Shown piece after piece: positions 7,096-22,034 of a stretch of DNA of 22,034 nt (position 1 is the stretch's first letter; every line of letters begins with the position of its first letter). The notes beneath the pieces are model-generated. The model did not search any database, had not been told where the DNA came from, and was given only the letters and a program-made list of their open reading frames with translations. The translations under genes were made by a program, and so were the position numbers. Source of the stretch: a virus. The stretch spans positions 1 to 22,034 of IMG/VR virus record IMGVR_UViG_3300005581_000155; one strand, given 5' to 3'.

Positions 7096-7102
7096 AACTG
7101 AA

Positions 7103-8785: not shown

Positions 8786-8801
8786 TCTGTCGCCATGCCT
8801 T

Positions 8802-8811
8802 AGTGGTCCCC
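8802..8811 (-). promoter_or_regulatory. GGGGACCACT intergenic element, copy 3 (before portal gene)
   Basis: The 10-mer is extended to seven G on the minus strand (plus-strand C run 8808-8814). It starts one base after the upstream stop codon and lies 16 nt before the GTG at 8785 or 43 nt before the ATG at 8758. Confidence 0.62.
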
Positions 8812-8815
8812 CCCG

Positions 8816-9040: not shown

Positions 9041-9050
9041 GGGAGGAGGT

Positions 9051-9721: not shown

Positions 9722-9725
9722 GGGT

Positions 9726-9863
9726 TTACTTTTCCGAAATGATCCGGATCACGGTGGCCGCGGTGGCCGCGTCAAGCGTCACGGCCTTGGATCCGTCCGC
9801 ATTCATGGACAGGGTGCAGGAACTGAGGATAGCCGCGAGGGCGAGCAGGATGACGGCTTTCAT
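9726..9863 (-). CDS. 45-aa lipoprotein (outer-membrane spanin-like candidate)
   Basis: The protein starts MKAVILLALAAILSSC. A basic residue, a hydrophobic h-region and a lipobox (LSSC, Cys16) give a signal-peptidase II site and a mature lipoprotein of about 30 aa rich in Ala and Thr. Phage lysis cassettes of Gram-negative hosts often contain such a short lipoprotein as the outer-membrane spanin (Rz1 type). It lacks the usual proline richness, so an entry-exclusion or other lipoprotein is also possible. The ATG overlaps the stop of the two-TM gene (ATGA). Confidence 0.68.
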   Translation of the reverse strand: MKAVILLALAAILSSCTLSMNADGSKAVTLDAATAATVIRIISEK

Positions 9864-10108
9864 GGTTCGGGATCTTTCGGGGTGAATTCGTAGGAGCCAT
9901 CCACCGATCCGTTGTCGATCAGGTCGGCGGCGAACTGGAGCCACTGCCGCGCCGTCAGCGCGAAGAACCCCACGGAGATGACGTAGGGCCGCCACTCCGC
10001 AGGGAATGGCAGCACGGCGGAATCCAGCGGCAACGTGCCAATGCCGGCGAGTAAACCGCCCAACCCGGTGACGATCTGGAGGAATTGCTTTTTGAACTGC
10101 GGTGACAT
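9860..10108 (-). CDS. Two-TM holin-like protein
   Basis: The 82-aa protein starts MSPQFKKQFLQIVTG. Hydrophobic segments at about residues 10-27 and 41-58 are separated by a short Pro-containing turn (LPFPAEWRPY), and the tail is charged and polar (DNGSVDGSYEFTPKDPEP). This is the size and topology of class II holins. It is the first gene after the large terminase and the head of a chain of overlapping lysis-type genes. Its ATG lies 43 nt after a GGGGACCACT element. The holin role is inferred from topology and context. Confidence 0.65.
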   Translation of the reverse strand: MSPQFKKQFLQIVTGLGGLLAGIGTLPLDSAVLPFPAEWRPYVISVGFFALTARQWLQFAADLIDNGSVDGSYEFTPKDPEP

Positions 10109-10151
10109 GCCCGCGACCTTCGGGCGACCCCGCCGGAATCACAGCCCCGAT

Positions 10152-10161
10152 AGTGGTCCCC
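10152..10161 (-). promoter_or_regulatory. GGGGACCACT intergenic element, copy 4 (before holin-like gene)
   Basis: With its G run extended to six (plus-strand C 10158-10163), the element abuts the large terminase stop codon directly. It ends 43 nt before the ATG at 10108. Confidence 0.62.
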
Positions 10162-10163
10162 CC

Positions 10164-11516
10164 TCACCAGCCGGAGACAAATCCGCCGTGAAACGCGTTA
10201 CCGCCCCCCGCGAGCACGTCCCGCGAGCTCACCGCCCCGGTCATCCGCGCGCCGCAGGCGATGGCCCCGAGCAGCGCGTCGGCGCGGTCCGGCGATTTCA
10301 CGCCGTTTGCCCGCATCTTGTCCTTGGACTCCACCCGCAGCTTGCCGGTGTCGGTCCACTCGCTCTTGCGGGTGGTCAGTTGGTCAAATGCCTTCGCGTC
10401 GAGCTGCCCGAGGTGCACGCGGCCGCGCTCGATCTCCCTCGCCCCGACGTGCCACACCTCGGCGATCAGGTTCGCGTATTCGTCCTTCTCGTTGGCTGCC
10501 TGCCCGCCGTGGAAACGGTTGATCCTCCAGCCCGCCTCCGCCAGCGCGTCGATCATCACCGTGCCGAGGCCATCCGCATCCCCCCAGATCTGGCCGGCTG
10601 ACAATTCCTCGCGCCCGAAAAGCTGGATGAACTGGCGGACGCCCTGCATCGTGTCCTTCTCATGCCAGGCGTCGGCAATGTAAGCGTGGTTCCCCTTCCT
10701 CACCGCGAGCACGTTCTCGTCACCGCCTGCCGCAAAGTCGCAGAACGCGACCACCTCGCCCGTAGTCACCGCGGCGGGCTGCGATTCCAACGATCGCTTC
10801 AATCGCTCGCTGGTCAGGATGAACGCGCCCGAGTCCTCGGTGAACTCCGCAAGGTGCTTGGAGCGGAACAGCGGGTGATCCATCCCATAGCGCCGGAGGT
10901 CGAGCTCGTAGCGCTCCGCGGGGATGTGCAGGCAGTCCTTGGACGTGGCTTTGACGGTGTGAAAAAAACCGGCGGCCTTGTGATGCGAGTCGAAGAACGG
11001 CCCGCGCGGCGATCCCGGCGAAGAGACCCACAGCTCATATTTCCGCGTGCAGCGGTCGAAGGCCTCGAAGATCGACTGCGGCACGGTCTTGGCCTCGTCA
11101 ATAATCAGAAAAACCGGATCCTCCTCCTGGGATACCTTCGGGTGATGTCCCTCCGCCCGGCCGGGGTTGTCGGTCGAGAATCCAAAAGCGAAGCCGCCCT
11201 CCGGGGTCCGCAGCTCCTCGGCCATGAATTGCCACGTCGGGAATCGCGTTTGAAAGACGCGGATCGCCGGCCAGAGTTGTTTCTGGATCTGCATCCACGA
11301 TCCGGACGTGAACACACACTGCCCGCGCGGGTGCTTGTGGAGAAACCAGAGGATGAGCGGTGCAATGAGCCGCGCCGTCTTACCGCTGCCGTTGGCGGCC
11401 ACCACGCTGGTCTGCTTGCCCACCGCCACGGACTCCATGGCGTCGAGTTGCCACTCGTAGGGGATCACGCCAAGCACCTTGGCGCAGAACATCGTCGGGC
11501 TTTCCTCCGTGGTCAT
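10164..11516 (-). CDS. terL: Terminase large subunit
   Basis: This 450-aa packaging motor protein starts MTTEESPTMF. Walker A is ANGSGKT (residues 41-47) and Walker B with the catalytic Glu is FLIIDE (136-141). The coupling region has ELWVSSPGSPRG (161-172). The RNase H-like nuclease domain carries the expected acidic triad: D260 in FCDFAAGG, D313/D315 in IWGDADGLG and D410/D413 in SPDRADALL. Length and domain order are those of a complete, probably active enzyme that translocates and cuts concatemeric DNA. The ATG overlaps the small subunit stop by one base (TGATG). The packaging type (cos, pac or Mu-like) cannot be read from sequence alone. Confidence 0.92.
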   Translation of the reverse strand: MTTEESPTMFCAKVLGVIPYEWQLDAMESVAVGKQTSVVAANGSGKTARLIAPLILWFLHKHPRGQCVFTSGSWMQIQKQLWPAIRVFQTRFPTWQFMAEELRTPEGGFAFGFSTDNPGRAEGHHPKVSQEEDPVFLIIDEAKTVPQSIFEAFDRCTRKYELWVSSPGSPRGPFFDSHHKAAGFFHTVKATSKDCLHIPAERYELDLRRYGMDHPLFRSKHLAEFTEDSGAFILTSERLKRSLESQPAAVTTGEVVAFCDFAAGGDENVLAVRKGNHAYIADAWHEKDTMQGVRQFIQLFGREELSAGQIWGDADGLGTVMIDALAEAGWRINRFHGGQAANEKDEYANLIAEVWHVGAREIERGRVHLGQLDAKAFDQLTTRKSEWTDTGKLRVESKDKMRANGVKSPDRADALLGAIACGARMTGAVSSRDVLAGGGNAFHGGFVSGW

Positions 11517-12031
11517 CAGCCGCCTTGAGTAATGGCTGCGCGTTTGGCCTCGATCAGCCGGGCGAGCGCGTCTTCCTGCTGGGGTGCCAGAGCGAAGGCG
11601 TGAACGGTCGAGATCGGGCCGCCACTCGGGCCGCTGACCTCCTGGGTGATCCGCTCGCCGTAGCGTTTCGGATCCCACTTGGCGAGGAGCTTGAGATCAG
11701 TCTCGATGATGAGCTTGTCGCGCTGCACGTCGCCGGTGCTGTCACCTCCCTCGCGGGCCGTCTCCCTCAGTCGGGTAGCGATGGCGTCGAACCCGCAATC
11801 TCGGGCGCGCGCGATGTCTGCGGAAAACCCCGCGTCTTTCTCCATCCAGTCGTAAACCGTGCGAATCCCCGGCATCCCCGCTGGCGAGCAGATCACCGTG
11901 AGCGGAGTCCCGTTGGAAAGCCCGTCCGCGATCTTGCTGGCCACGGCGGGAGAGAACCTCGACGGCCTGCCGCGCGGTTTCGGCGGCGCTTTCTTCTTCG
12001 CTCGTCCCTGCTTGGCCACGGTTCGTTTCAT
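11516..12031 (-). CDS. terS: Terminase small subunit
   Basis: The 171-aa protein starts MKRTVAKQGRAKKK. A very basic N-terminal tail (residues 1-25) precedes a helix-turn-helix region: SRFSPAVASKIADGLSNG, TPLTVICSPAGMPGIRTVYDWM, DAGFSADIARARDCG. This is the classic layout of small terminase subunits that recognise the packaging site. A helical oligomerisation region follows (DKLIIETDLKLLAKWDPKRYG), then an acidic/Ala-rich tail that would contact the large subunit. The start is supported by a strong SD (GGAAGGA) 2 nt before the ATG, which is rare in this window. A GGGGACCACC element ends 45 nt upstream. Confidence 0.88.
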   Translation of the reverse strand: MKRTVAKQGRAKKKAPPKPRGRPSRFSPAVASKIADGLSNGTPLTVICSPAGMPGIRTVYDWMEKDAGFSADIARARDCGFDAIATRLRETAREGGDSTGDVQRDKLIIETDLKLLAKWDPKRYGERITQEVSGPSGGPISTVHAFALAPQQEDALARLIEAKRAAITQGG

Positions 12032-12076
12032 CGTCCTTCCATCTTCCGCGCGCGCGAGGGCTTGGCGAGTCCCGCC

Positions 12077-12086
12077 GGTGGTCCCC
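12077..12086 (-). promoter_or_regulatory. GGGGACCACC intergenic element, copy 5 (before small terminase gene)
   Basis: The minus strand reads GGGGACCACC, differing from the other copies only in the last base. It lies 13 nt after the upstream stop and 45 nt before the terS ATG. Confidence 0.6.
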
Positions 12087-12099
12087 GCTAAACCTTCCC

Positions 12100-12438
12100 T
12101 CATGACAGGTGTTTGCGGAGTTGGGTGAGGAACCATGTCCAGCCGTGTGATTTGCTTGGTGCATCGCCTGGAGCCTCGACGGTGATCCGGTCGCGCCGGC
12201 AGCCGATCCGCACCGTCCAGCGCCTGACCTTGCCGGATCTGAAATCCGTCCATTGGAGGCACCCGAGCGCATCGCCCTGGCTGCGCGGCAGGTTCTGCAC
12301 GTCATTCTCCGCCATTTCCCTCAGCCGCTCGGCCATATGCTCCAGCCGGCGAGCGGATTGCACGCGTTGGGAGGCTTTTCCCATTGCGCTCATTCTCAGC
12401 CGCTTGCGCTCGGCACGTTGTTTTCGGTAGTTTGTCAT
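12100..12438 (-). CDS. Hypothetical basic protein
   Basis: The 112-aa protein is rich in Arg and Lys. An N-terminal positively charged helix (residues 1-45, with RRLEHMAERLREMAEN) is followed by a small beta-like domain (CLQWTDFRSGKVRRWTVRIGCRRDRITVEAPG) and a C-terminal WTWFLTQLRKHL. I do not recognise the family. Composition and position directly before terS would suit a nucleic-acid-binding accessory protein, but that is speculation. It is kept as a real gene because it is in phase with the neighbouring gene layout and no competing frame fits. There is no SD before the ATG. Confidence 0.55.
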   Translation of the reverse strand: MTNYRKQRAERKRLRMSAMGKASQRVQSARRLEHMAERLREMAENDVQNLPRSQGDALGCLQWTDFRSGKVRRWTVRIGCRRDRITVEAPGDAPSKSHGWTWFLTQLRKHLS

Positions 12439-12456
12439 GGCTGGTCTAATAACGTG

Positions 12457-12813
12457 TTACCTTGAGACCCCTAGTAGGCGTTTTTCCTCATCGGTCAGCT
12501 TGTTGAGCGCCTCGGCGCGGGCCTTGATTCTCGCGTCATAGACCGCTTCCAGGTGTGCATTTGCGATTTCCGTCACATACCAGAGCGCGTTCGTGATTTC
12601 CTCGTGTGTGGCGCGAATCTGGCGGCGTCCAGTGTCGATCATCACGTTCCATTCGCCATGCGTTTCGCCGGTTTCGTTGGTCATGTGATCGTCGCGTTCC
12701 CAGTCGATGGAGACGCAACTGTATTCGTTGAGCGTGACCATGAGATTCCGCATCCAGTTTTCATCATTGTGCCGAGCGCTCGGCATGTCGTTGGGGCTTT
12801 CGGGTAGTTCCAT
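12457..12813 (-). CDS. Hypothetical acidic protein
   Basis: The 118-aa protein starts MELPESPNDMPSARHNDENWM. An acidic N-terminal half with beta-like stretches (GEWNVMIDTGRRQIRATHEEI) is followed by a long amphipathic helix (residues 74-110, TNALWYVTEIANAHLEAVYDARIKARAEAL). No known motif, TM segment or signal is seen. It ends 18 nt before the next start. The function is unknown; such proteins are frequent in phage accessory regions. Confidence 0.6.
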   Translation of the reverse strand: MELPESPNDMPSARHNDENWMRNLMVTLNEYSCVSIDWERDDHMTNETGETHGEWNVMIDTGRRQIRATHEEITNALWYVTEIANAHLEAVYDARIKARAEALNKLTDEEKRLLGVSR

Positions 12814-12836
12814 AATTTAGAAAGGTAACAAGTTGG

Positions 12837-12862
12837 TGGAGCCAAGCGGCGGGACGGCTCCA
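12837..12862. repeat. Small inverted repeat between two hypothetical genes
   Basis: TGGAGCC at 12837-12843 pairs with GGCTCCA at 12856-12862 around a 12-nt GC-rich loop, in the 57-nt gap between the 78-aa and 118-aa genes. There is no U-tract in the transcript direction, so a terminator is not supported. Confidence 0.5.
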
Positions 12863-12870
12863 GTTTGAAT

Positions 12871-13107
12871 TTATGGCTTCCGTGAGTCCGCCGCTGGCTC
12901 ACCTTTTGCGTTCTGCTCAAATTTCTTGACCTCGGCAAAGTGGTTCCATCCAGTTTCCTGTTCGACCTTTGCTTGCCATTCATCCAAGGCGATCCGCCAC
13001 GGGTGCAGCGCTTTGTGGGGCATTCCAAGGAAGACGTATGCCTCGTTAAGAAGCAGAACAAGTCGGTCGAGGTCAACGGGCGTGGCGGTGTGTGTCGAAG
13101 TTTCCAT
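12871..13107 (-). CDS. Hypothetical small protein
   Basis: The 78-aa protein starts METSTHTATPVDLDRLVLLL. A leucine-rich helix (residues 12-24) is followed by aromatic segments (MPHKALHPWRIALDEWQAKV, then GWNHFAEVKKFEQNA) and a polar tail. The start is well supported by AAGGAAA 8 nt upstream, lying inside the end of the methyltransferase gene, with a 4-nt gap between the two genes. The family is not recognised. Being directly coupled behind the methyltransferase it might act with it, but nothing in the sequence shows that. Confidence 0.62.
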   Translation of the reverse strand: METSTHTATPVDLDRLVLLLNEAYVFLGMPHKALHPWRIALDEWQAKVEQETGWNHFAEVKKFEQNAKGEPAADSRKP

Positions 13108-13111
13108 ATAG

Positions 13112-14017
13112 TTAGTTTCCTTTCTGGTGAGGCGATGTGGCGCTTTCCGCCCGTGCCTCACCTATTGCGTTCTCTGGAAATAAATTCAGCACCTCTTGGG
13201 CGAGGCGGTGGTGGCAGATTTCGACGTATTCGGGATTAATCTCGATCCCGATGAACCTGCGTCCGAGTTCCTTGGCCGCTTTCAGCGTCGTGCCACTACC
13301 CGCGAACGGATCAAGCACCACGTCGCCGGGATTGCTCCAGCTCGCTACATGGTCTTTTGCGAGTGCCAGCGGGAACGGTGCAGGATGTTCAGTCACATCG
13401 TCGCCGGCGAAGTGACCGACTTGGTATTGCCACACGTTATCCCTGATTCCGGTTTCACCCGTCGCCGTCGTGTGCTTTTCCCTCGCGCCCATCGCGGCGG
13501 CTTTTGGACTTCTCCAGTTGGCCATTCCCGCCGTTGAATTTCGCCTATCAGCCAGTCTATTTACCACCTGCGGCTTTCCTTTGGCCATGACCATCATGTA
13601 TTCCCACGCCTGCCAATACGCGGCGTTGCTTCCACACGCTCCGACGGCTGCTTTTTTGTAGATCATCACGTCATGGATGTTCAGTCCGCACACGTCCTTG
13701 AAGTGGATCGCTTGCCTCATGCTTGTGAGCGTCTCACTTCCGTTCACCGTCGCATCAGCCACCACCCACACGATCACGCCGCCAGGCTTGAGCACCCGCG
13801 TCAGTTCGCCCGCCAGTTTCTCGAAGTCCCATGAGTGGCCGCCATAGGTGCGGAGGTCGTCATACGGCGGCGACGTTACCACAATATCCACGCTTTCCGC
13901 TGGCATGGCGACGAGCGTTTCGCAGTTGTCCCCGTGGATCACACGATCCAAGAATGAAGACAGACAACAAGACGGTGATGCCAATCCCGAGGGCGGCGAT
14001 GTCGTTTCAGTATTCAT
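13112..14017 (-). CDS. DNA methyltransferase, beta-class (N6-adenine or N4-cytosine)
   Basis: The 301-aa protein starts MNTETTSPPSGLA. Catalytic motif IV is TSPPYDD (residues 48-54) and SAM-binding motif I is DPFAGSGTT (236-244), followed by GRRFIGIEINPEY (252-264). Motif IV preceding motif I defines the beta class; SPPY rather than DPPY is frequent in N4-cytosine enzymes but also occurs in N6-adenine enzymes, so the modified base is open. No endonuclease gene is nearby, so it is an orphan methyltransferase, probably shielding phage DNA from host restriction or marking it for regulation. It is translationally coupled to the upstream coiled-coil gene by ATGA. Confidence 0.9.
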   Translation of the reverse strand: MNTETTSPPSGLASPSCCLSSFLDRVIHGDNCETLVAMPAESVDIVVTSPPYDDLRTYGGHSWDFEKLAGELTRVLKPGGVIVWVVADATVNGSETLTSMRQAIHFKDVCGLNIHDVMIYKKAAVGACGSNAAYWQAWEYMMVMAKGKPQVVNRLADRRNSTAGMANWRSPKAAAMGAREKHTTATGETGIRDNVWQYQVGHFAGDDVTEHPAPFPLALAKDHVASWSNPGDVVLDPFAGSGTTLKAAKELGRRFIGIEINPEYVEICHHRLAQEVLNLFPENAIGEARAESATSPHQKGN

Positions 14018-14757
14018 AGCGTTTTTCCGCCCTCGGGCTGGCATACCTCTGCGTTGTGCCCAAAAATGCCGAGCATCCGCTGGATGAACGCTTCCTTGCT
14101 TTCATGATCCGTCGTCACCAGATTCTCGATTTGACCAATGGCTTCTACGCATCGCATGGTAGCTGCGATCAGTCCGGCGTCACCCCACAGTTCGCTTTCG
14201 GGATGCCCGCCCAATTCAACGCGTAGCTTCTCCTCGAAGTTATCCCGCCGCTCATTTATAGCCGCGATATCTTTTTGCAGCTTTTTTGCATAATCCCAGA
14301 TAGTCCCGTTGGGGTCCATCTGCTCGCAGCCGAGGTCCTTGTTTTGCTGGATGTATTTTGCCTTCCACTCTTCCCGCTCGCGTTCAGCGTTGATCATGCG
14401 TTCCTGTGTGGCTCCCAGTCGATCAACTAGTGCGTCTGCCGACTCTCGGTATCTGTCCCGCTCTGCCACAATCATCTCTGCGAGTATTTTCGTCGGAGCA
14501 TTGGCATCGGGCATCGCATCGAGCAGTATGTCACGCGCATCTCCCATTGCTTTTTGAGCGACATCCCGCTCGCGTTCTAGCTTTCGTGCGAAGTCTGCTT
14601 CAACGACCCGATCTGGATCGCACATTGCGTCGCAGTATTCCATAGCGTCGGATTCTGGTGTCGGCGCGAGTTTAATTTCGAGTTGCGAGTTCATAGGTTT
14701 CTTTAGTTTCGGTTCATCTTCAGGGTTAGGCCACCCGAGGCCGTCTAGTCCGCTCAT
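14014..14757 (-). CDS. Coiled-coil phage protein, unknown function
   Basis: The protein has 247 aa. After a flexible N-terminus, residues 50-180 are almost entirely charged helix (for example ADFARKLERERDVAQKAMGD, then ERMINAEREREEWKAKYIQQ), giving a long coiled coil, followed by a more globular C-terminus. Phages often carry proteins with an ADFARKLERERD-type segment in accessory regions, and their function is unknown. The listed start overlaps the upstream stop as ATGA. A second candidate, MNSQLEIKLAPTPESDAM at 14694, matches the usual N-terminus of such proteins better. A structural or DNA-metabolism role cannot be assigned. Confidence 0.65.
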   Translation of the reverse strand: MSGLDGLGWPNPEDEPKLKKPMNSQLEIKLAPTPESDAMEYCDAMCDPDRVVEADFARKLERERDVAQKAMGDARDILLDAMPDANAPTKILAEMIVAERDRYRESADALVDRLGATQERMINAEREREEWKAKYIQQNKDLGCEQMDPNGTIWDYAKKLQKDIAAINERRDNFEEKLRVELGGHPESELWGDAGLIAATMRCVEAIGQIENLVTTDHESKEAFIQRMLGIFGHNAEVCQPEGGKTL

Positions 14758-15026
14758 GGTTTCATCTCAGTTGCGCCCACGGATGAACTTGTTTCGTTCT
14801 CCCAAGAAAAAAGCAGCTTTGCCTTGGTCGGCGGCGTGATGTTGTTGCGCCAGTTTTCCGCTTCTTCGCGGGTTTCGGTAAGCTGCCTTTTGAGTTGCTC
14901 GATGTATTCCGCCCCGTAGCTCCATAGAGTAGAATCGTAATCCGCTGACCCATCTTCCTGCGCCCATTTCTCTACCATTTCAGGCGGCAGAGAATCCCTC
15001 AGTTCCTTGTAGTTGTAGTATGCCAT
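14754..15026 (-). CDS. Small tyrosine-rich coiled-coil protein, unknown function
   Basis: The 90-aa protein starts MAYYNYKELRDSLPPEM. The N-terminal aromatic patch (MAYYNYKEL) is followed by SADYDSTLWSYGAEY and a helix (IEQLKRQLTETREEAENW) with coiled-coil character. The ATG at 15026 has no SD. The frame is open up to a GTG at 15131 that would overlap the upstream stop as GTGA, but the added 35 residues would translate the structured region 15043-15125 and look non-coding, so 15026 is chosen. The function is unknown. Confidence 0.6.
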   Translation of the reverse strand: MAYYNYKELRDSLPPEMVEKWAQEDGSADYDSTLWSYGAEYIEQLKRQLTETREEAENWRNNITPPTKAKLLFSWENETSSSVGATEMKP

Positions 15027-15042
15027 AATCGTAATTTTAGAG

Positions 15043-15125
15043 GGAGAACAAGCCACGGCACCACGACCGGGACTTGAATTCAATCCGCCGCGCGGCGCGG
15101 ACGGATTTGAGCGTTCTCCAAGTCC
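15043..15125. other. Structured intergenic element (nested inverted repeats, tRNA-sized)
   Basis: The 101-nt gap holds three nested pairings. GGAGAAC (15043-15049) pairs with GTTCTCC (15113-15119). GGACTTG (15070-15076) pairs with CAAGTCC (15119-15125). A central hairpin combines AATCCG with CCGCG against CGCGG and CGGATT (15082-15107), with one bulged A and a 3-nt loop. The first pair spans 77 nt. On the minus strand TTCAAGTCC followed by CGGTCGTGGTGCCG resembles the 3' end of a tRNA, but no matching D-arm or 5' acceptor is present. It may be a structured RNA, a regulatory hairpin or a remnant attachment site. Confidence 0.5.
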
Positions 15126-15127
15126 GC

Positions 15128-15625
15128 TCACAGTTTTGGCGGGTAAGTTTTCCTCCGCTGGAGCCGCGGCTTGATGGTGAGTCCGAGCTGCCGGAATGCG
15201 TCCAGCATCGCCGCCCGCGTCGCGATCGCCACCGCGGTGTCAGTCGATTTGATCGTCACGCAGATCCGCCGGCCAACCGTCTTCGGGCCGGTTTCAATGG
15301 TGACCCGCAGTTTCCATCGCCGCTTGCTGGCGTCCCAGGTCAGCCCGTGGTCGCGCTCCATCCGCCAGCGCATCCGCACCGAGAGCGGCAGCGACGGGCA
15401 CTGGAGCGCCGCCAACGCCTCTTGTTGGACGCTCGTCGCGGGCGTCACCCCGTCGTAAATCCACGATTCGAGTTTCCGTCGCGGAGCGCGCACGATCCGG
15501 GCCATTTCCGACAGGCTGAAAAGCCCGCAGTTCTTAATCTCCACAAGGGTTTGCGCGAACGAAATTTTTATTTCCGGCGGTGCGGCGTTTCCGCGATTCT
15601 CTGCGATTTCGGGTGAGGGATTCAT
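15128..15625 (-). CDS. Putative DNA-binding protein (HTH plus integrase-arm-like segment)
   Basis: The 165-aa protein has an HTH-like region at residues 34-62 ([23 protein letters not shown]), with a basic second helix suited to DNA contact. Residues 94-150 have the strand-strand-strand-helix pattern of AP2/Arm-type DNA-binding domains ([20 protein letters not shown], then [19 protein letters not shown]). There is no integrase catalytic domain, so it is not a recombinase. It starts 3 nt after the SSB stop, at the end of the replication cluster. A regulator of the following accessory or late genes is a reasonable inference but unproven. Confidence 0.55.
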
Positions 15626-15628
15626 CGG

Positions 15629-16051
15629 TCAGAATGGAATGTCGCCGTCCTCGTCCTCGTCCTGAGTGCTTTCCGCCGCGGCCGGCATGCCGGGAGATTG
15701 TCGGCGGTCGGCTGGCAAATTCCGCGGCGCAGGCCCGTCGCGCTTTTCCGAGATAAGGTGCATGCTCTCGGCGGTCACCTTGGTCTTCCTTTGCTTCTTG
15801 CCGGTCTGCTTGTCCTCCCACTCGTCCTGGGTCAACCGGCCGGAAATCCCGAGCCGATCGCCTTTTTTGACATATTTCATCGCGGTCTCGGCAGTCACGC
15901 CCCACAGCGTGACATCCAGCCAAAGGGTCTTTTTGTTCTCCCCGTAGCCGTCATCCACGGCCAGCGTGAGACCGGCCACCGCCTTTCCGCTGGATGTGTG
16001 CCGGAGTTCCACTTCGCCGCCCACGCGGCCGATGAGATTGATCTGATTCAT
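15629..16051 (-). CDS. ssb: Single-stranded DNA-binding protein
   Basis: The 140-aa protein starts MNQINLIGRVGGEVELRHTS. Residues 1-103 form the OB fold with typical SSB landmarks: GRVGGEVELRHTSSGKAVAG, WLDVTLWGVTAETAMKYVKKGD and the strand RLTQDEWEDKQTGKKQ. A Pro/Gly-rich linker leads to the acidic tip DEDEDGDIPF, which in SSB proteins recruits partner enzymes. It coats single strands during phage replication and recombination. The ATG overlaps the stop of the 65-aa upstream gene as ATGA. It sits with helicase loader, resolvase and RecT/exo genes, as expected. Confidence 0.93.
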   Translation of the reverse strand: MNQINLIGRVGGEVELRHTSSGKAVAGLTLAVDDGYGENKKTLWLDVTLWGVTAETAMKYVKKGDRLGISGRLTQDEWEDKQTGKKQRKTKVTAESMHLISEKRDGPAPRNLPADRRQSPGMPAAAESTQDEDEDGDIPF

Positions 16052-16245
16052 GCTGTTTTTCTTTTTTGGTTGTTGGTTTGGTGAGTCCTTGCCGCGGCCA
16101 GCGCGGTCTTGAGTTCGAGATGCACGGCGGAGATCCGCTTGGTCGCCTTGAGTCGCAGCGCCCTGGCCGCGCGTTCGTGGGTGTCCGCCTCGGCGTATTC
16201 CCATGCCGCGAGATCCATCTCTCTGATTGCTGCCGGCGTGTTCAT
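16048..16245 (-). CDS. Small helical basic protein, unknown function
   Basis: The 65-aa protein starts MNTPAAIREMDLAAWEYAEAD. It is nearly all helix, acidic at the N-terminal side and basic at the C-terminal side (ALRLKATKRISAVHLELKTALAAAR), ending in KRK. It fits between the helicase loader and SSB with ATGA overlaps on both sides, strong evidence that it is translated. The family is not recognised. Small partners of helicase loaders or SSB are possible, but no motif shows this. Confidence 0.65.
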   Translation of the reverse strand: MNTPAAIREMDLAAWEYAEADTHERAARALRLKATKRISAVHLELKTALAAARTHQTNNQKRKTA

Positions 16246-16907
16246 GGTTGGGCGCGGTAGGAGGTCCAATCAAACTCGATGCTTTTCCCGTTCTCGCGGG
16301 CTCGGTCCACGATTGATTTGCCGAGGCTTTCGGCCAGATCGCTCTTGGCAAGGTTGGCGATCAAAATCGTCGGCTTGTTCGACGCGTAGCGCGCGTCAAT
16401 CACATGGGTCAGGAGCCGGTCCTCAAATGCTGTCTCACCGCGCTCCTGGATCTCATCGAGAATCAGCAGGTCGGTGCGGGCCAGATCGTCCAGAATGTCC
16501 ATTTCCGACAATTCCGATCCCTTGCGGAAGGTGGCCCGCACTTCGAGGAAGAATCGCATCGCGGTGCGGTAGCGCGAGGAGCCGACCATCACTGCCAGCT
16601 CCGCGGCCATCCGGGTTTTGCCGCACCCGCGCTTGCCGTATAACACCACGATGCCGTTTTTGAGCACCCGGTCCTTGGCGGACTCATAGGCGGCGGCCCA
16701 GCGCTCCCCATGAGGCGGCGTCTTCACCGCGTCCAGATATTTCACCGGCCAGCCGCTGCGCCCCCCAAGGGCGCTGCGTTGGATCCGCGAGCGCTCCGCC
16801 AACCGGCGGGCTTCTTGCTGCTCGGCGAGTTCTTCCGGAGTCGCCGGGATTTCATCCGGCGCGTCCGCGATCATTTGGTCTAATTTGGTCAGGTCGATGG
16901 TTTGCAT
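16242..16907 (-). CDS. DnaC/IstB-like helicase loader (AAA+ ATPase)
   Basis: The 221-aa protein starts MQTIDLTKLDQMIADAPDEI. Walker A is LYGKRGCGKTR (residues 89-99) and Walker B is DLLILDEIQE (146-155). Sensor I is ILIANL (181-186), and SIVDRARENGK (198-208) supplies the arginine-finger region. Family knowledge: such proteins load the replicative helicase at a phage origin with the initiator encoded directly upstream. The ATG at 16907 is one base after the upstream stop (TGACATG). An upstream ATG at 16946 would overlap the initiator gene by 38 nt and is less likely. IstB transposition helpers share this fold, but no transposase is present. Confidence 0.88.
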   Translation of the reverse strand: MQTIDLTKLDQMIADAPDEIPATPEELAEQQEARRLAERSRIQRSALGGRSGWPVKYLDAVKTPPHGERWAAAYESAKDRVLKNGIVVLYGKRGCGKTRMAAELAVMVGSSRYRTAMRFFLEVRATFRKGSELSEMDILDDLARTDLLILDEIQERGETAFEDRLLTHVIDARYASNKPTILIANLAKSDLAESLGKSIVDRARENGKSIEFDWTSYRAQP

Positions 16908-16908
16908 G

Positions 16909-17625
16909 TCAGTCGGGTAGTTGGAGAGTTTCCTGTGGGTATTCATGCGCCCTGCGGCGCGCTGGTGCCGTCGTGGGCGCTTTCTGGCTGGGAAGGTAGC
17001 CAGCGGCTTTCCATGACCTCAGCGTGGCCTTCCAGTCCTTCACGGAGGCCGCGCCGTTCTTCCATCCGTTGCCCTCCCATTTGTAGAACATCGCCTCGCC
17101 GTCCGTTTCAGGGAGGCCGAGCTCACGAGCGAAGGATTTCATCTCCTCCAAAGTCCCGCGGCTCTTACTGCCATTCGTAAGAATGGTAGTAAGTATCTTC
17201 TCTTCTCTTCTCTTCTCTGGTCGGACTTTCGGGGCTCTTTTTGTCGGACATGTGTCGGACAATTTGTCGGACGGATTTTGACCCATCCGGCGCAGGCGCT
17301 TGGCCTCACTTTCCAAGGCCCTTGCTTTCGCTGAACTCCCGTTGTGCCTAGTAAAACGAGGCAGGCAGAGGCTTCCATCTTCACCGTCCAGCCAACCGAT
17401 TTGACGCAATGCACTGGCAAACCCAGGGCGGCCAATGAGCCGGTCAAGGCGGCATTGGGTGATGTCGATTGCGTTTCCGTCAGCGGTTTGTTTGTTCGCC
17501 CAACTCCAGAAAGAGACGAGGTGTCCGACAGTTGTCGGATCATCTGTCCCTAAAATGTCGGACAATTTCATCACGTCCGGATCCGTTGGTAGATCGGTGC
17601 GTATTTTGATCCAGTCTCCAGCCAT
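16909..17625 (-). CDS. Phage replication initiation protein (winged-helix, lambda O/DnaD-like)
   Basis: The 238-aa protein starts MAGDWIKIRTDLPTDPDVMK. Residues 1-100 look like a winged-helix domain (VMKLSDILGTDDPTTVGHLVSFWSWA, then CRLDRLIGRPGFASALRQIGWL). A basic linker follows (about residues 110-150), and the C-terminus has the hallmark of phage replication proteins, MFYKWEGNGWKNGAASVKDWKATLRSWK. Gene order (initiator, then DnaC-like loader) is the common phage replication pair. Initiators of this type often bind iterons within their own gene; I did not see clear iterons. The linker carries a 5-nt tandem repeat at 17196-17218 that could shift the frame if its copy number changes. Confidence 0.75.
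   Translation of the reverse strand: MAGDWIKIRTDLPTDPDVMKLSDILGTDDPTTVGHLVSFWSWANKQTADGNAIDITQCRLDRLIGRPGFASALRQIGWLDGEDGSLCLPRFTRHNGSSAKARALESEAKRLRRMGQNPSDKLSDTCPTKRAPKVRPEKRREEKILTTILTNGSKSRGTLEEMKSFARELGLPETDGEAMFYKWEGNGWKNGAASVKDWKATLRSWKAAGYLPSQKAPTTAPARRRAHEYPQETLQLPD
17165..17218 (-). repeat. Pentanucleotide tandem repeat followed by a hairpin inside the initiator gene
   Basis: TCTTC occurs four times in a row plus TCT (17196-17218), read as AGAGA-type purine repeats in the transcript. Six bases after it in transcript order is an imperfect 12-bp inverted repeat with a 4-nt loop (17165-17176 and 17181-17192). The repeat unit is not a multiple of three. Confidence 0.75.
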
Positions 17626-17631
17626 GGTCGT

Positions 17632-18117
17632 TTATAGGGTGGATTCGTTGAGGGTGGTGATCGTGATCGCACATCCCGGTGCCTGCTCGCCCGGTAGCTC
17701 CCAGCGCTTCAGGACGGTCAACTCGCAGACCTGATCGTCGTCATGCCACGCGTAAATTCCCGTCAGCGCGTCGAGCACCGCTTTCGCGAGGTTGTCGGCG
17801 TCGGGCTTTTGCTGGTGCAGGAAAACAGGGGATGCCGGCTTGAGCTGGCCGTTGACGCGCAGGTGGTGCTTGGGCCGCGGCATGTAGAACACCAGCTTGA
17901 CCGCCAGCGCGTGAACGAGGCAGCGGTTTTCCAGATCCCGGCACGCCCGCGCCACGTCGCCCTTCCAGCCCTCCGCGGTGCCGGAGTCGTAAACCGCCGC
18001 CCGCCCGTTGCGGACGAATGCCCGCGGCCGTGGCTGGCCCTTCGGCAGCCCCAGCGCCCGCCAGTCACCGACTAGCGTCCTGACAACGTGAATTTCGCGA
18101 TGGGGACACGCGATCAT
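17632..18117 (-). CDS. rusA: RusA-family Holliday junction resolvase
   Basis: The 161-aa protein starts MIACPHREIHVVRTLVG. The family signature is present: KPDADNLAKAVLDAL (residues 104-118), with D106 and D108, followed by WHDDDQVCEL (124-133), whose D127 completes the acidic cluster. RusA dimers cut four-way junctions symmetrically, here most likely resolving recombination intermediates before packaging. RusA proteins are usually about 120 aa; this one has an N-terminal extension of about 40 residues that replaces the typical start. The ATG overlaps the exonuclease stop as ATGA. Confidence 0.88.
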   Translation of the reverse strand: MIACPHREIHVVRTLVGDWRALGLPKGQPRPRAFVRNGRAAVYDSGTAEGWKGDVARACRDLENRCLVHALAVKLVFYMPRPKHHLRVNGQLKPASPVFLHQQKPDADNLAKAVLDALTGIYAWHDDDQVCELTVLKRWELPGEQAPGCAITITTLNESTL

Positions 18118-18740
18118 GCCACATCCTCCCGGAAAGATTTTGCCAGATTCCACATGGCCGAGTATTCACTCACGAAATCCTCCACCATCGCCTTCAGCTT
18201 CGCCGTGTAGCCGTCCGGCTCCACAAACAGGTGCAGCGGCTTCATGCCGGGGCAGTAGGAAAAGAAGTGCCACGGCAGCCCCGTCACCATCATCGAAAAA
18301 TGAACCTGCGGCTTGTAGGTATCCGGCAGCCCGCCATCGAGCAGATAGCGCAGATGCGTCTTCGGTAGCGGGCACTTGATCTCCAGACCTTCGACGTGGT
18401 TGCCGCCGCGTGAAATCAACCCGTCCGGCGAGCACCCGATCACCCCGTCCTCTCGGGTGACGAAGCCGACCTCCTCCACCGCGATGGACAGCAGACCCTC
18501 AAACGCCGCCCGCGCCAGCGGCTCCATCGCCGTTCCGCGGTCGGTGTTCGCGTTGCCGTGCCAGGCGTTCTGGCCGGGGCAGAAACAATCCGAAACCAGC
18601 TCGTCCATGTAGGCCGCGCGCTGGGTCGAGGACTTCCCACCCGCCGTGATGATCTTGGCCGCGTTCGACGCCGTCAGCTTCCCGGTGCGGGCCGCGTGCC
18701 ATTGCTCGGAGCCCTGCAGCAGGTTCGGCCAGATTTTCAT
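18114..18740 (-). CDS. YqaJ-like (lambda Exo-type) recombination exonuclease
   Basis: The 208-aa protein starts MKIWPNLLQGSEQWHAARTG, the usual N-terminus of YqaJ exonucleases. Conserved sites are RGTAMEPLAR (E73), IGCSPDGLI (D106), GLEIKCP (E120, K122) and YKPQVHFSMMVTG (Q145), together the PD-(D/E)XK metal-binding centre. These enzymes resect double-strand ends 5' to 3' and pass the strand to a RecT/Bet annealase, which is encoded three genes upstream. Length matches the family. The start overlaps the upstream stop as ATGA. Confidence 0.92.
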   Translation of the reverse strand: MKIWPNLLQGSEQWHAARTGKLTASNAAKIITAGGKSSTQRAAYMDELVSDCFCPGQNAWHGNANTDRGTAMEPLARAAFEGLLSIAVEEVGFVTREDGVIGCSPDGLISRGGNHVEGLEIKCPLPKTHLRYLLDGGLPDTYKPQVHFSMMVTGLPWHFFSYCPGMKPLHLFVEPDGYTAKLKAMVEDFVSEYSAMWNLAKSFREDVA

Positions 18741-19054
18741 GGCGCCACCTCCTTCGCGGTATCAATCACGTCGCAAACCTTGCACTCGATGACGTAGCGC
18801 CACTCCTTGCCGATCTTCGCGTCGTCGCTCGGGAAACAGCGATCCATCTTGTAGCCGCATTTCCGCTTGGCCACCGGACAACCGAGGAAGCAGGGCGCGG
18901 GCTTGCCGTCCTCAAACTTCGGTCGCAGCGAGGTGGACTCCGGGTCGGTATCCATCACGCACATCCGTTCACCTGAGTGGATCCGGACCGGATCGCGGCC
19001 CATCATGAATGCGCCGCAATGAAACAGCACCTTGATCGTTGGCTGAGCGCTCAC
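18737..19054 (-). CDS. Cysteine-rich putative metal-binding protein
   Basis: The 105-aa protein has a GTG start (MSAQPTIKVLFHCGAFMMG) overlapping the upstream stop as GTGA. It has eight Cys (13, 32, 55, 59, 66, 73, 91, 94). The last six form CFLGC, CGYKMDRC and CKVC groups that could hold two zinc ions or another cofactor. It lies between the DUF1351-like gene and the exonuclease in a tightly overlapped recombination cassette, so a role as partner or DNA-binding accessory of exonuclease/annealase is plausible. I do not recognise a named family. The ATG further upstream (19072) would invade the neighbouring gene and is rejected. Confidence 0.68.
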   Translation of the reverse strand: MSAQPTIKVLFHCGAFMMGRDPVRIHSGERMCVMDTDPESTSLRPKFEDGKPAPCFLGCPVAKRKCGYKMDRCFPSDDAKIGKEWRYVIECKVCDVIDTAKEVAP

Positions 19055-19989
19055 GCCACCACCTCCTGCCATGCTGCGTTAATCGCGCTGGCAAACACCT
19101 GCGCCTTGGCAATGTTCTTCGGGAAGGTCAGCGCACCTTTAGCACCCTTCAGCGGCGCGAATGCGGTGAGGGCCGCCGCCTTGAATGACTTCCACTCCAC
19201 ATCCGCCGTGAGTTCAACGTGCGGCGTTGGGATTTCGGCCTCCGATGTTCCCGGTGCCTCCCGCCCATCCCGCGCCTCCACCAGTGCCACCTTCAAGGCA
19301 TCCGCCTCGGCCTTGAGCTTGTCAGATTCCGCCTTCAGCCTCGCCGCTTCCTCGGCCGCTTTCTTCGCCTGGACGCGGCGCACCAGCTCCGCCTCCACCA
19401 TCTCCGCTGATTTCAGCTCCAGCTCGGCCCGGTCCGGGATCGAATCCGCCCCGAACTTCGCCTCAAACCGGGCGAGCACCTCACGGCTCGCCACGATCGC
19501 AGCTTGCTGCGTCGCCTGGTAAACCCGGCACGCCGAGCGCATGCTCTCCACCGTCCGCTTGCCCTTGATCGCAGCTTGCAGTCCGGTCAGGAACTGCCGG
19601 CGCGCCAGCTTCGGCTCGATGTCAAACTCGGCGAGGTATTCCTCCACAATCTCCGCCTTGACCTCCTCCTTGCGCCTGCGGATCTGCCCGGCCAAGTCCA
19701 CTCGCGCCGCCGCCAGCTCGGCGGCCAGCCCGTCAATGCCCTCAAACAACGCGTGCAGTTGCTCCGCGTCGGCCAGCGCCTTCTCCTTCGCGCTCTTCAG
19801 CGCCGCCTCCGCCCCGGCGATCGCCTTCGCATCGGCGTCCGCCTGGTCGAAGTCGTCGTCCGTGGCAAGATCTCGGTTGATCTCCCCCAGCCGGGCGCGG
19901 ACCATCTCCGCGAATGCCGGAAAATTCGAGGAAACGATTTCCCCCCGCGCCTCGATGGCAAGAATGATTTCTGTGGTTTCGGCTGTCAT
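19051..19989 (-). CDS. DUF1351-like coiled-coil recombination-cassette protein
   Basis: The 312-aa protein starts MTAETTEIILAIEARGEIVS. Residues 8-110 match the DUF1351 pattern: a short strand, GEIVSSNFPAFAEMVRARL, an acidic spacer (TDDDFDQADADAKAIAGAEA) and a KEKALADAEQLH-type helix. Residues 190-245 are a long coiled coil (VRRVQAKKAAEEAARLKAES). The C-terminus is a small domain ending AQVFASAINAAWQEV. DUF1351 proteins accompany recT and exonuclease genes in many phages; their mechanism is not established. The gene starts 3 nt after recT. The family call is from pattern and context. Confidence 0.68.
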   Translation of the reverse strand: MTAETTEIILAIEARGEIVSSNFPAFAEMVRARLGEINRDLATDDDFDQADADAKAIAGAEAALKSAKEKALADAEQLHALFEGIDGLAAELAAARVDLAGQIRRRKEEVKAEIVEEYLAEFDIEPKLARRQFLTGLQAAIKGKRTVESMRSACRVYQATQQAAIVASREVLARFEAKFGADSIPDRAELELKSAEMVEAELVRRVQAKKAAEEAARLKAESDKLKAEADALKVALVEARDGREAPGTSEAEIPTPHVELTADVEWKSFKAAALTAFAPLKGAKGALTFPKNIAKAQVFASAINAAWQEVVA

Positions 19990-19992
19990 GAT

Positions 19993-20706
19993 TCAGAGCA
20001 GGTCTTGGGTTTCGGGTTCGTCATAAGAATCAAACGGGATATCATCCTCCGGCTCCGCTTCCACCTTGGCCTTGCGCGTCCTCGCGGACTCCGCCAGCGG
20101 CTTCGCTTCCTCCTGCTGGAACGGGTCGATCGCCGCGGCACGCGCCTTCACCGGCGTCACGTCGCGCATCCCCGGCGTGTCCGCCGCCTCGTCCTCATCC
20201 GTCACTCCGGAAAATCCAAACGCATAGCGCGCGCACTGCATCAGCGCCTTATGCCTCAACATCCGGTGCTCCATCTTCCACGGGTCGGAGTTGCGCTTGC
20301 ACTCGCTCAGGTGCTCCGTCACCGAGATCGGCCGGCTGCGGTCCTTGCGCCACAGCTTGCAGGTGATGGCCTCCAGCTTGCCGTCCTCGCCGCAATGCTC
20401 CTCGAACTCCATCCCATCCATCGCCGGGTGGTCGTTGACCATGCTCACCCAGCCGTCGATTGAGACGACCGGCACGATCCCGCCACCTTTCGCCGGAAAC
20501 GCGTAAATCTCCTTCGTCAGCGGGTTGAGCTGGTATTCGTTCGCCACCACCACCAGGGCCAGCAGCTCGTCGTCGGAGGCACCCTTGAAAACCGTCGCCT
20601 TGAGCGTGGCCATCAGTTTGATCGGGTCCACGTTCAGGCGGGATCCCAGAATGTTCAGCGCCGAAACGCGCGGCGCGGGTTGTTGTGTTGCCAGTTGTGT
20701 GTTCAT
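19993..20706 (-). CDS. RecT/Bet-family single-strand annealing protein
   Basis: The 237-aa protein starts MNTQLATQQPAPRVSALNIL. Core signatures of the Bet/RecT family are LKATVFKGASDDELLALVVV (residues 35-54), LNPLTKEIYAFPAKGGGIVP, VSIDGWVSMVN (81-91), CKLWRKDRSRPISVTEHLSE and MLRHKALMQCARYAFGFSG (149-167). It anneals strands resected by the YqaJ-type exonuclease, giving the phage its own recombination system. The acidic tail contains DDIPF (221-225), the same tip as the SSB encoded downstream (GDIPF). There is no SD; the leader is a CA repeat (AAACACACACACAAA). Confidence 0.9.
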   Translation of the reverse strand: MNTQLATQQPAPRVSALNILGSRLNVDPIKLMATLKATVFKGASDDELLALVVVANEYQLNPLTKEIYAFPAKGGGIVPVVSIDGWVSMVNDHPAMDGMEFEEHCGEDGKLEAITCKLWRKDRSRPISVTEHLSECKRNSDPWKMEHRMLRHKALMQCARYAFGFSGVTDEDEAADTPGMRDVTPVKARAAAIDPFQQEEAKPLAESARTRKAKVEAEPEDDIPFDSYDEPETQDLL

Positions 20707-20731
20707 TTTGTGTGTGTGTTTAAGGGAAAAT

Positions 20732-20926
20732 TCAGAGGACGGCGTAAAGCATCACCCCGGCCACGCCGAGGACGGTGGCGACCGCCGCGGCGATCACCGC
20801 CATGGCCAGCATCTGCTCGGACCGGCGCTCTTCGTGCTCAGCCACGCGCCGCAGCAGTTCGAGATCCGCACTGGGGTTCCGCCCGAACGTGTCCGAGCTT
20901 TCGCGTTTGATTTGATGGTCATTCAT
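20732..20926 (-). CDS. Small C-terminally anchored membrane protein, unknown function
   Basis: The 64-aa protein starts MNDHQIKRESSDTFGRNPSA. The first 38 residues are charged and helical (LELLRRVAEHEERRSEQ); residues 41-63 form one strong membrane segment (AMAVIAAAVATVLGVAGVML). The topology suggests a cytoplasmic N-terminus with a C-terminal anchor. It overlaps the upstream 27-aa TM peptide as ATGA. Early phage membrane proteins include superinfection-exclusion and holin-like factors; nothing here decides between them. Confidence 0.62.
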   Translation of the reverse strand: MNDHQIKRESSDTFGRNPSADLELLRRVAEHEERRSEQMLAMAVIAAAVATVLGVAGVMLYAVL

Positions 20927-21006
20927 GGCAGTTGCTGGTTGAGGACGAGGACGAGGAGCGCGATCACCGCGTTGACTCCGAGAAGAATAGAAAGTGCGAT
21001 TTTCAT
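20923..21006 (-). CDS. 27-aa single-TM micropeptide
   Basis: The frame starts MKIALSILLGVNAVIALL and reads as one membrane helix (residues 3-22) with a short polar tail (NQQLP). Its stop overlaps the ATG of the 64-aa membrane gene (ATGA). The leader is purely A/C (AAACCAACAAACCAACACC). The overlap and leader suggest it is translated, either as a peptide of its own or as a coupling leader. Confidence 0.5.
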   Translation of the reverse strand: MKIALSILLGVNAVIALLVLVLNQQLP

Positions 21007-21033
21007 GGTGTTGGTTTGTTGGTTTGATGGGTT

Positions 21034-21042
21034 CCCCCCCCC
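21034..21042 (-). other. Homopolymer G9 tract (C9 on plus strand) in a 124-nt gene gap
   Basis: The gap 21007-21130 holds AGGAGGGGGGGGG on the coding strand, then AACCCATC and the A/C-only leader of the 27-aa gene. I see no convincing promoter or ORF in the rest of the gap. The tract is long enough to slip in replication. GGGGAACC resembles a degenerate form of the late GGGGACCACT element. Confidence 0.6.
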
Positions 21043-21130
21043 TCCTGCCCGTCTGCTTTTGTCACCGGCCGTAAGCCATGGGCATTCGAGGTCGCCACCC
21101 GATCAGAGCAGAGGGAGAGGGAAAATTAGT

Positions 21131-21388
21131 TCAGCCGCCTTGCAGCCGTTGGATCTCCGCCTGCGGGATGCGGGTCAGACCCTCCAGGTCATCCACCGTG
21201 CGGATCAGCCCCGCCTTGATCCGGCTCCGCACCGTGTCCTGGCTCATGTTCAGCGCCAGCGCCGCCTCCCGGACGGACAACGGAGCCTTCCGCTTCGGGC
21301 CGGAGACCTCGCCCATCTTCACCGCGATCCGCTCCGCCAGCACTTCAAGCTGCGCGTCGGAAAGCCGGACCTCCAGTGACGCACTCAC
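21131..21388 (-). CDS. Excisionase-like helix-turn-helix protein
   Basis: The 85-aa protein has a GTG start overlapping the upstream stop as GTGA, with GGAGG 8 nt before it. Residues 1-32 form an acidic/hydrophobic helix. Residues 36-85 match the HTH_17/excisionase (MerR-like winged helix) pattern: PLSVREAALALNMSQDTVRS, then RIKAGLIRT and IPQAEIQRL, the last part contacting DNA through the wing. Such proteins act as directionality factors or small repressors. No integrase is in the window, so a regulatory role is as likely as excision. It is co-encoded with the RHH-like protein upstream. Confidence 0.75.
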   Translation of the reverse strand: MSASLEVRLSDAQLEVLAERIAVKMGEVSGPKRKAPLSVREAALALNMSQDTVRSRIKAGLIRTVDDLEGLTRIPQAEIQRLQGG

Positions 21389-21588
21389 GACGCCACCTCC
21401 TCGGTCGGGCTGGTGCCGGAGGCTAGCGCGGCCTCCGCAGCGCGCTCCAGGTAGTAGCGGGCAAAGCTGCTCTCGGTCCGGTGCTCAGCGCAGGCGGCCG
21501 CCTTGATCCGCTGGCGCAGGCCGCGCTCGATCTGGATCGCCAGGATAGTGGTTTCGCTGTCGGGGTGGTCTGTCGTTTCGTCAGGCAT
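21385..21588 (-). CDS. Ribbon-helix-helix-like small regulator (leftward)
   Basis: The 67-aa protein starts MPDETTDHPDSETT. The segment TTILAIQIERGLRQRIKAAA gives a short strand followed by helix A; the turn HRTESSFARYYLERAAEAAL gives helix B, the Arc/MetJ-type ribbon-helix-helix layout. Such proteins bind DNA as dimers through the strand. A GTG at 21594 would add two residues. The promoter region upstream carries CCGTTWAACGG palindromes, likely targets of this protein or its divergent partner. Confidence 0.62.
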   Translation of the reverse strand: MPDETTDHPDSETTILAIQIERGLRQRIKAAACAEHRTESSFARYYLERAAEAALASGTSPTEEVAS

Positions 21589-21603
21589 GCACACCGTTTA
21601 AGA

Positions 21604-21614
21604 CCGTTTAACGG
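21604..21614. promoter_or_regulatory. Operator-like palindrome CCGTTTAACGG (left copy)
   Basis: This is a perfect 11-bp palindrome around a central T, located 16 bp upstream of the leftward gene start. A half-site repeat ACCGTTTA precedes it twice at 10-bp spacing (21593 and 21603), placing adjacent sites on one face of the helix. Confidence 0.65.
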
Positions 21615-21661
21615 CGTTGCCAAGAAAAAACTTAAGGAACGGTAAATAATTTTTTAAGACG

Positions 21662-21672
21662 CCGTTAAACGG
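21662..21672. promoter_or_regulatory. Operator-like palindrome CCGTTAAACGG (right copy)
   Basis: This is the inverted partner of the left copy; matching extends to 14 bp (21604-21617 against 21659-21672). The two sites flank an AT-rich core (21621-21658) that probably contains the divergent promoters; I could not fix -35 and -10 boxes. Confidence 0.65.
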
Positions 21673-21723
21673 CAATTAAAAACACCTTGCGCCCCGTGCA
21701 ACGCCGTGATAATGGTGAAAAGT

Positions 21724-21951
21724 ATGAAGCCGAACAAAACTCGTGCAGCAGACAAGACAGTGCTGGGCGTCTCCATGCCAAAATCCTTGAAACTTCGCAT
21801 CACCCGGCTCGCCGAGGCGGACCACCGCAACATGGCCCAATGGTGCGTCGTGCAGTTGGAAAAAGCCGTCTCGGAACTGGAAGCCGCCGCCCCCGCTCCG
21901 CTCAAATCCCTCCCCGACTCAGCAAACAAGCGCTCACCAAAACGCGCCTAA
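21724..21951 (+). CDS. Ribbon-helix-helix-like small regulator (rightward, divergent)
   Basis: The 75-aa protein starts MKPNKTRAADKTVLGVSMPK. It has a basic N-terminus, a strand (VLGVSMP), helix A (KSLKLRITRLAEAD) and helix B (NMAQWCVVQLEKAVSEL), the Arc-type ribbon-helix-helix order, then a Pro/Ser/Lys-rich tail. The ATG at 21724 is preceded by GGTGA 5 nt upstream; a GTG at 21706 or an ATG at 21712 would add 6 or 4 residues. It is the first gene on the plus strand and diverges from the early operon, a usual position for a phage repressor or antirepressor. It may bind the palindromes at 21604 and 21662. Confidence 0.68.
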   Translation: MKPNKTRAADKTVLGVSMPKSLKLRITRLAEADHRNMAQWCVVQLEKAVSELEAAAPAPLKSLPDSANKRSPKRA

Positions 21952-22034
21952 TGGTGCAACTGACACATGCGGCAAGCCGCCCTCCCCGACCAGCAAAAAA
22001 CCCGAAAATTCTAGCCCTAACAAATACCCCCCCC
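21951..22034 (+). CDS. Possible partial ORF running off the right edge
   Basis: An ATG overlaps the preceding stop as TAATG, and 28 codons remain open to the window end. The visible peptide (MVQLTHAASRPPRPAKN and on) is basic with no motif. The last bases are a C8 run. It may be the start of a coupled gene or chance. Confidence 0.25.
   Translation, partial: MVQLTHAASRPPRPAKNPKILALTNTPP

Follow-up and report, generated by a model that had tools for sequence, protein, structure and literature searches.

Two divergent genes for putative RHH proteins

The DNA analysed here is a virus record from IMG/VR of 22,034 bases, probably derived from a temperate phage; the whole of this stretch is referred to below as the window. 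Near its right end, two small genes diverge from a short gap. Gene A, on the minus strand (21385-21588), would encode 67 aa from the ATG at 21588, inside a frame that is open from a GTG at 21594, and gene B, on the plus strand (21724-21951), would encode 75 aa from the ATG at 21724, inside a frame that is open from a GTG at 21706. Judging from the relatives described below, these two ATG codons appear to be the better starts. Gene A heads a leftward operon, in which it is followed by an excisionase-like HTH_17 gene (21131-21388, minus strand; PF12728, 28.9 bits against a cut-off of 27) and then by a short frame, RecT, a RecE-like protein, a further short frame, YqaJ, RusA and a replication protein. 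At the opposite end of the window, a minus-strand frame (3-686) with collagen-like GPxGxxGP repeats probably encodes a tail protein. To the right of the gap, the plus strand carries B, after which the record soon ends.

The original prediction described both flanking genes as small, RHH-like and divergent from the site between them, and profile searches, AlphaFold models and comparison with PDB folds all agree with this description. In Pfam, A matched RHH_10 with an E-value of 0.015 and 16 bits, under the cut-off of 27, and B matched no RHH family. Among PHROGs, the matches were to families of Arc-like repressors (A, phrog_3431, E 0.0046) and Arc-like regulators (B, phrog_38161, E 6.6e-5). Neither protein reached an RHH profile above a curated cut-off, and the PHROGs matches come without a given cut-off. 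Profiles built from A-like and B-like proteins reached CopG, ORF56, ParG, Mnt and RHH antitoxins with E-values from 0.002 to 1. The AlphaFold monomers contain two helices each, at residues 24-36 and 41-59 in A (mean pLDDT 83.8) and at 26-38 and 43-61 in B (mean pLDDT 77.9), which is the helix pattern of RHH proteins (about 13 and 19 residues), with the strand left unassigned in the monomer models. The nearest PDB folds of both are RHH proteins, among them PutA, CopG, Arc and AmrZ (for B: AmrZ, Arc and CopG), with target TM-scores mostly of 0.6-0.9 and Z-scores of up to 6.7 for A, every Foldseek E-value being above 0.05. Both A and B thus look like RHH proteins by profile and predicted fold.

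Some of the weaker profile names (partition PHROGs for B, antitoxins and ParG among PDB entries, and NikA-like matches for the proteins of the relatives L004 and L015) would fit an RHH component of a partition, toxin-antitoxin or relaxase-accessory system. We regard such a function as very improbable, given that a ParA-type ATPase (PF13614) was detected in none of 10 records and that the neighbors of the pair are HTH_17 and, in relatives, an integrase, with no toxin or relaxase.

Within a single cassette, the kinship of A and B is recognizable in four cassettes (alignment z-scores of 10 to 12) and hardly so in L005 (z 3.9). The tail of B (window 21880-21951, APLKSLPDSANKRSPKRA) is nearly identical in the window, L013 and L005, despite the quite different RHH part of L005, as if a foreign DNA-binding part had been joined by recombination to a resident tail. 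Three further loci that matched the DNA pattern derived from this tail (L056, L057 and L060) were rejected as chance matches inside unrelated frames.

Candidate operators in the intergenic region

The gap contains two exact palindromes of 11 bp, as the original prediction had it: candidate operator O1 (CCGTTTAACGG, 21604-21614) and candidate operator O2 (CCGTTAAACGG, 21662-21672). They form the cores of a 14-bp inverted repeat (arms 21604-21617 and 21659-21672), the arms of which face each other across an AT-rich middle. The repeat had been predicted and is indeed perfect, but its reported spacing of 45 bp needs correction, because the palindromes are 47 bp and the arms 41 bp apart. The predicted 10-bp phasing of half-sites is also present: ACCGTTTAA occurs at 21593-21601 and is seen again 10 bp on, at 21603, overlapping O1. 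In addition, GCAACGCCGT at 21698-21707 on the plus strand is an inverted copy of 21611-21620 and represents a possible third, partial site. A search for the palindrome elsewhere, which had been proposed as a check, found exactly 2 copies of the motif in the whole record and none outside the pair in the gap.

The position of these sites relative to A and B depends on where the promoters lie. A promoter consensus scan of the window found none, and the promoters were therefore inferred by comparison across loci. On the A side, a TTG stands 34 to 37 nt ahead of the start codon in 9 of the 10 RHH/RHH loci defined below (the exception is L015; in L096, the TTG of A is at -35). On the B side, the distance is 33 to 37 nt, again in 9 of 10 (the exception, G003, has TTC). 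In controls, a TTG at 33 to 37 nt preceded 14 of 190 long ORFs and 292 of 3259 ATG codons. The predicted A promoter (21595-21623, minus strand) consists of TTGGCA (21623-21618), a 17-bp spacer and TAAACG (21600-21595), and the predicted B promoter (21687-21715, plus strand) of TTGCGC, a 17-bp spacer and TAATGG, with the TTG 37 nt before the ATG of B. This placement suggests that the transcripts of both genes are leaderless; that of A would start at or near the ATG. O1 occupies the spacer of the predicted A promoter, and the extra half-site at 21593-21601 covers its -10 element. O2 is centered 57 bp before the start codon of B and 15 bp upstream of the predicted -35 element of B, and the possible third site falls inside the predicted B promoter.

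Exchange of the cassette among related phages

The record IMGVR_UViG_3300042938_001697 (hereinafter G003) shares 18 kb with the window at 95-97% identity, with 96.7% over 344-12458 and 95.3% over 15125-21406. The alignment then deteriorates sharply: between 21419 and 21866, blocks of 50 columns contain 8-32 identical positions, and from 21867 the blocks return to 42-46 of 50. The dissimilar part, at about 21407-21866, covers the operators and the greater part of both A and B. The palindromes of G003 read GTGTTNAACAC and show the same anatomy as those of the window in other letters: the pair GTGTTCAACAC and GTGTTAAACAC lies 40 bp apart, the extended inverted repeat matches at 13 of 14 positions, and the motif occurs only twice in the record. 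Counted each in its own record, there are 2 copies of the motif in the window, G003, G004 and G005, and 3 in G002.

A separate stretch of the window, 12459-15124, also does not align with G003, except for one 74-base piece; within it, the frame at 13112-14044 reads, as a protein, as a DNA methyltransferase.

By sequence comparison, L004 and L094 are a second case of exchange. The two loci are 88% identical through the integrase and B2, do not match over B1, the gap and A, and then show 80% and 93% identity through the HTH gene and RecT. In L004, an ortholog of window B persists as B2, which follows B1, a different RHH gene. Direct repeats of ACGTTTG were noticed by eye in L004.

To survey the locus more broadly, we considered the 10 loci in which each strand carries a gene confidently assigned to RHH; most of the relative records are fragments. 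Not included in this set were L006 and L020, where only the A side has an RHH gene, L037 and L041, where only the B side has one, and L090/L091, where the RHH hits on either side are weak. The 10 loci stand for seven cassettes, since L094-L096 are near relatives of each other, as are L005 and L088. Exact palindrome pairs occur in the gap of 5 of the 10 loci, corresponding to 4 of the 7 cassettes. L005 and L088 carry a common third cassette with GTAGC-N7-GCTAC sites, L015 has GCGTATATACGC twice, 21 bp apart, and L009 has two CGTAAC-N7-GTTACG sites separated by 158 bp, of which the second falls within gene A. L015 also encodes a third RHH-like gene (5911-6108) on the B side, between B and the integrase. 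Outside the set, no palindrome pair was found in the gap of L090/L091. In L006 (4861-5605), the place of B is taken by an HTH gene that weakly resembles CI and faces a weakly RHH-like gene, and TTTCCTAAATTGGAAA occurs twice in the gap, one copy overlapping the RHH start. L006 may represent a mixed HTH/RHH version of the locus, and both types of regulators may be interchangeable here.

Matches to the window motif with up to two mismatches are at chance level in the window (4 found versus 3.72 expected), as would be the case if the palindromes were a coincidence or had no role. Such an explanation is scarcely credible. When the 147-bp region of the window gap was shuffled with preservation of dinucleotides, only 4 of 2000 shuffles contained two matching palindromes, of whatever sequence, with half-sites at least 5 bp long. 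The same test gave 3 (L013), 0 (L005), 0 (L088) and 1 (L015), each of 2000. The equivalent pair of G003 in other letters also speaks against coincidence, as does the retention of O1 in L094-L096, where much of the gap has changed. The palindrome pair is real and beyond chance.

Covariation of the motif with protein A

Both window proteins have orthologs in L094, L095 and L096 (in L094, 42 of 61 residues of A and 37 of 52 of B are identical). All three loci keep the proximal CCGT-N3-ACGG, together with AACGG ten bases on, directly before A, and their O2 is degenerate.

We aligned A and B with Arc and Mnt and compared the residues in the columns of Arc Q9, N11 and R13, which we take to be DNA-contact residues. 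In A, these are I, A and Q in the window, L094 and L095, and I, G and R in G003. In B, they are V, G and S in the window, G003 and L004, and T, G and S in L094. Thus, the change of the motif between the window and G003 goes with A rather than with B, given that two of the A residues, at positions 17 and 19 of the window protein, differ and the aligned B residues are the same. From this single contrast, we infer that the palindromes are read mainly by A. The proposed sharing of the operators by both proteins is less certain, as the motif change tracks the predicted DNA-facing residues of A, with those of B constant. The motifs of the window and G003 both contain the core GTTNAAC, and this common core could be readable by B, too.

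The constancy of B at these positions, along with the location of O1 within A's own predicted promoter, would suit a simpler arrangement, in which A merely autoregulates the early operon and B regulates the integrase, so that the pair sets the timing of expression and confers no immunity. We consider this arrangement improbable, because the exchange is confined to this stretch both between the window and G003 and between L004 and L094, the pattern expected of immunity regions.

Genomic context and other candidate repressors

The window stops in a poly-C run (22026-22034), at the place where G003 stops too; L005 has a longer poly-C run there, followed by the integrase. The integrase of the window phage probably lies just past the end of the record. 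Beyond B, an integrase above the Pfam cut-off is found in L004, L094, L009 and L015. At the same place in L005 and L088 stand proteins of 402 aa and 442 aa without a Pfam match, which we call integrases by place and sequence. Sequences resembling tRNA 3' ends (T arm, acceptor and CCA) lie beside the integrase in L004 (6287), L094 (2856), L095 (4332) and L009 (2214) and are probably attachment sites in tRNA genes; no whole tRNA gene was detected in any of the eight sources. The record of L004, G001, appears near-complete, given that its two ends share a 5.3-kb overlap at 99.8% identity. In G001, B1, B2 and the integrase run rightward, and the other listed frames run leftward except for three short rightward ones, taken to be spurious.

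The HTH_3 profile was sought in 12 and then in 7 records, three of them twice. Among the 10 RHH/RHH records, it scored above the cut-off in two. In G403, the record of L088, a C1-type HTH_3 gene (L088 6348-6797, 43.3 bits) lies directly after the integrase on the strand of B and is a candidate second repressor of that phage; in G002, the record of L005, the match is marginally over the cut-off and far from the locus. No HTH_3 match over the cut-off was found in the window record, G003, G001 or G400-G402, with the window and G003 ending before the integrase. Peptidase_S24 was found in 0 of 12 records.

These results bear on whether the RHH pair might play only a secondary or accessory part in immunity, like immI in P22, with lysogeny kept by a CI-type HTH repressor located elsewhere, for example, beyond the integrase. 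The gene in G403 stands in just such a place, and an HTH_3 gene could follow the integrase in the window phage and G003 as well, because both records stop before that place. Furthermore, P22 has exactly such a two-part arrangement (PMC6550527). We nevertheless judge an accessory role unlikely. HTH_3 did not exceed the cut-off in the near-complete-looking G001 or in G400-G402, the gene after A is HTH_17 and not an ant-like gene, and the RHH pair sits at the divergence point of the integrase and the early operon and not within a late operon.

Searches beyond these records gave few leads. Among named phages, neither megablast with the window nor tblastn with HTH_17, B or A produced a match. A alone as a query had no match among viral contigs, and a profile search with A recovered 4 loci, all already in the locus set. 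No integrated prophage or host was found. Relatives of RecT occur in two Verrucomicrobiota bins and in five genomes from other phyla. When 387 genomes of the phylum to which one of these bins belongs were searched, 2 matched, including the bin itself.

Discussion

Taken together, the comparisons moderately favor the view that 21385-21951 is an exchangeable lysogeny and immunity control cassette of a temperate phage, built of two divergent RHH proteins. The sharp exchange of this stretch alone in otherwise near-identical phages favors the reading as an immunity region, and, in line with the genetic switch envisaged in the original prediction, its behavior among related phages is that of an immunity cassette. 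In the proposed mechanism, A, at the head of the leftward recombination and replication operon, would hold the position of Cro or Arc, and B, directed toward the integrase gene of the relatives, that of CI or Mnt. RHH dimers would dock on the CCGT-N3-ACGG sites and the 10-bp-phased half-sites. Since O1 lies in the spacer and a half-site on the -10 element of the A promoter, predicted to be leaderless, proteins bound there would switch off the leftward operon, and O2, upstream of the predicted -35 element of B, would modulate B and the integrase. Under this model, occupancy would repress, B would maintain lysogeny, and exchange of the cassette would change superinfection immunity.

A more far-reaching version can be entertained only tentatively, and we lean somewhat against it as a whole. 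Here, the RHH/RHH pair would be the only lysis-lysogeny switch and immunity system, replacing CI/Cro; two strand residues of A (in the columns of Arc N11 and R13) would set the operator code; the swapped alleles would form a natural specificity series (CCGTT versus GTGTT); and both transcripts would be leaderless, with the operator in the spacer of the A promoter.

A switch built from two RHH proteins had been thought unusual, but the layout is not unprecedented, as the immI region of P22, overlooked in the original prediction, is a divergent RHH/RHH pair: mnt lies on the minus strand, Oarc and Omnt in the gap, and arc on the plus strand. In PMC7549136, Arc (53 aa) is described as acting in lytic growth and repressing itself, and Mnt (82 aa) as acting in lysogeny. 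PMC8022706 presents immI as a secondary immunity region inside the late operon. Like immI, the locus described here has two small RHH-like genes on opposite strands with candidate operators in a short gap, and, by position, A resembles arc and B resembles mnt. Unlike in immI, one motif is repeated here, compared to the different Oarc and Omnt of P22; A is followed by HTH_17, where arc is followed by ant; and, in the relatives, the pair lies between the integrase and the early operon rather than inside a late operon. Having no ant after A, the pair is not filed under immI.

With the cI/cro region of lambda-type phages, the locus shares the placement of divergent regulators at the junction of the integrase side and the early operon, as found in the relatives L004, L094, L009 and L015 (the window ends too early). 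The swapping of alleles with cognate operators among relatives is also reminiscent of lambda-type phages, and PMC6550527, which describes P22 immunity as two-part, gives lambda and 434 as a heteroimmune pair. In contrast to cI/cro, the regulators are RHH-like rather than HTH proteins and have no S24 domain, and there are two operators, versus the tripartite sites of lambda. Lacking HTH regulators, the pair is not filed under cI/cro, either. A third comparison is F55 of the archaeal virus SSV1, a 55-aa RHH protein that keeps the virus dormant via short repeated sites in early promoters (PMC9608457). F55 is likewise a small RHH regulator of lysogeny, but it is a single regulator whose 11-nt sites are spread over several promoters, and not one of a divergent pair.

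By analogy with these systems, the best reading is of an immI-type pair standing where cI/cro normally sits. The layout has a precedent, and the novelty would lie in where the pair sits, in the repetition of one motif and in the natural series of alleles. A limited search of the open-access literature found no RHH/RHH pair serving as the primary lysogeny switch; RHH control of lysogeny has so far been represented by P22, at its second locus, and by the archaeal virus SSV1. If the interpretation is correct, an RHH pair at the place of CI/Cro, with alleles exchanged along with their cognate operators, would be a very small model for the evolution of immunity specificity, a system that would let one ask which strand residues read which bases.
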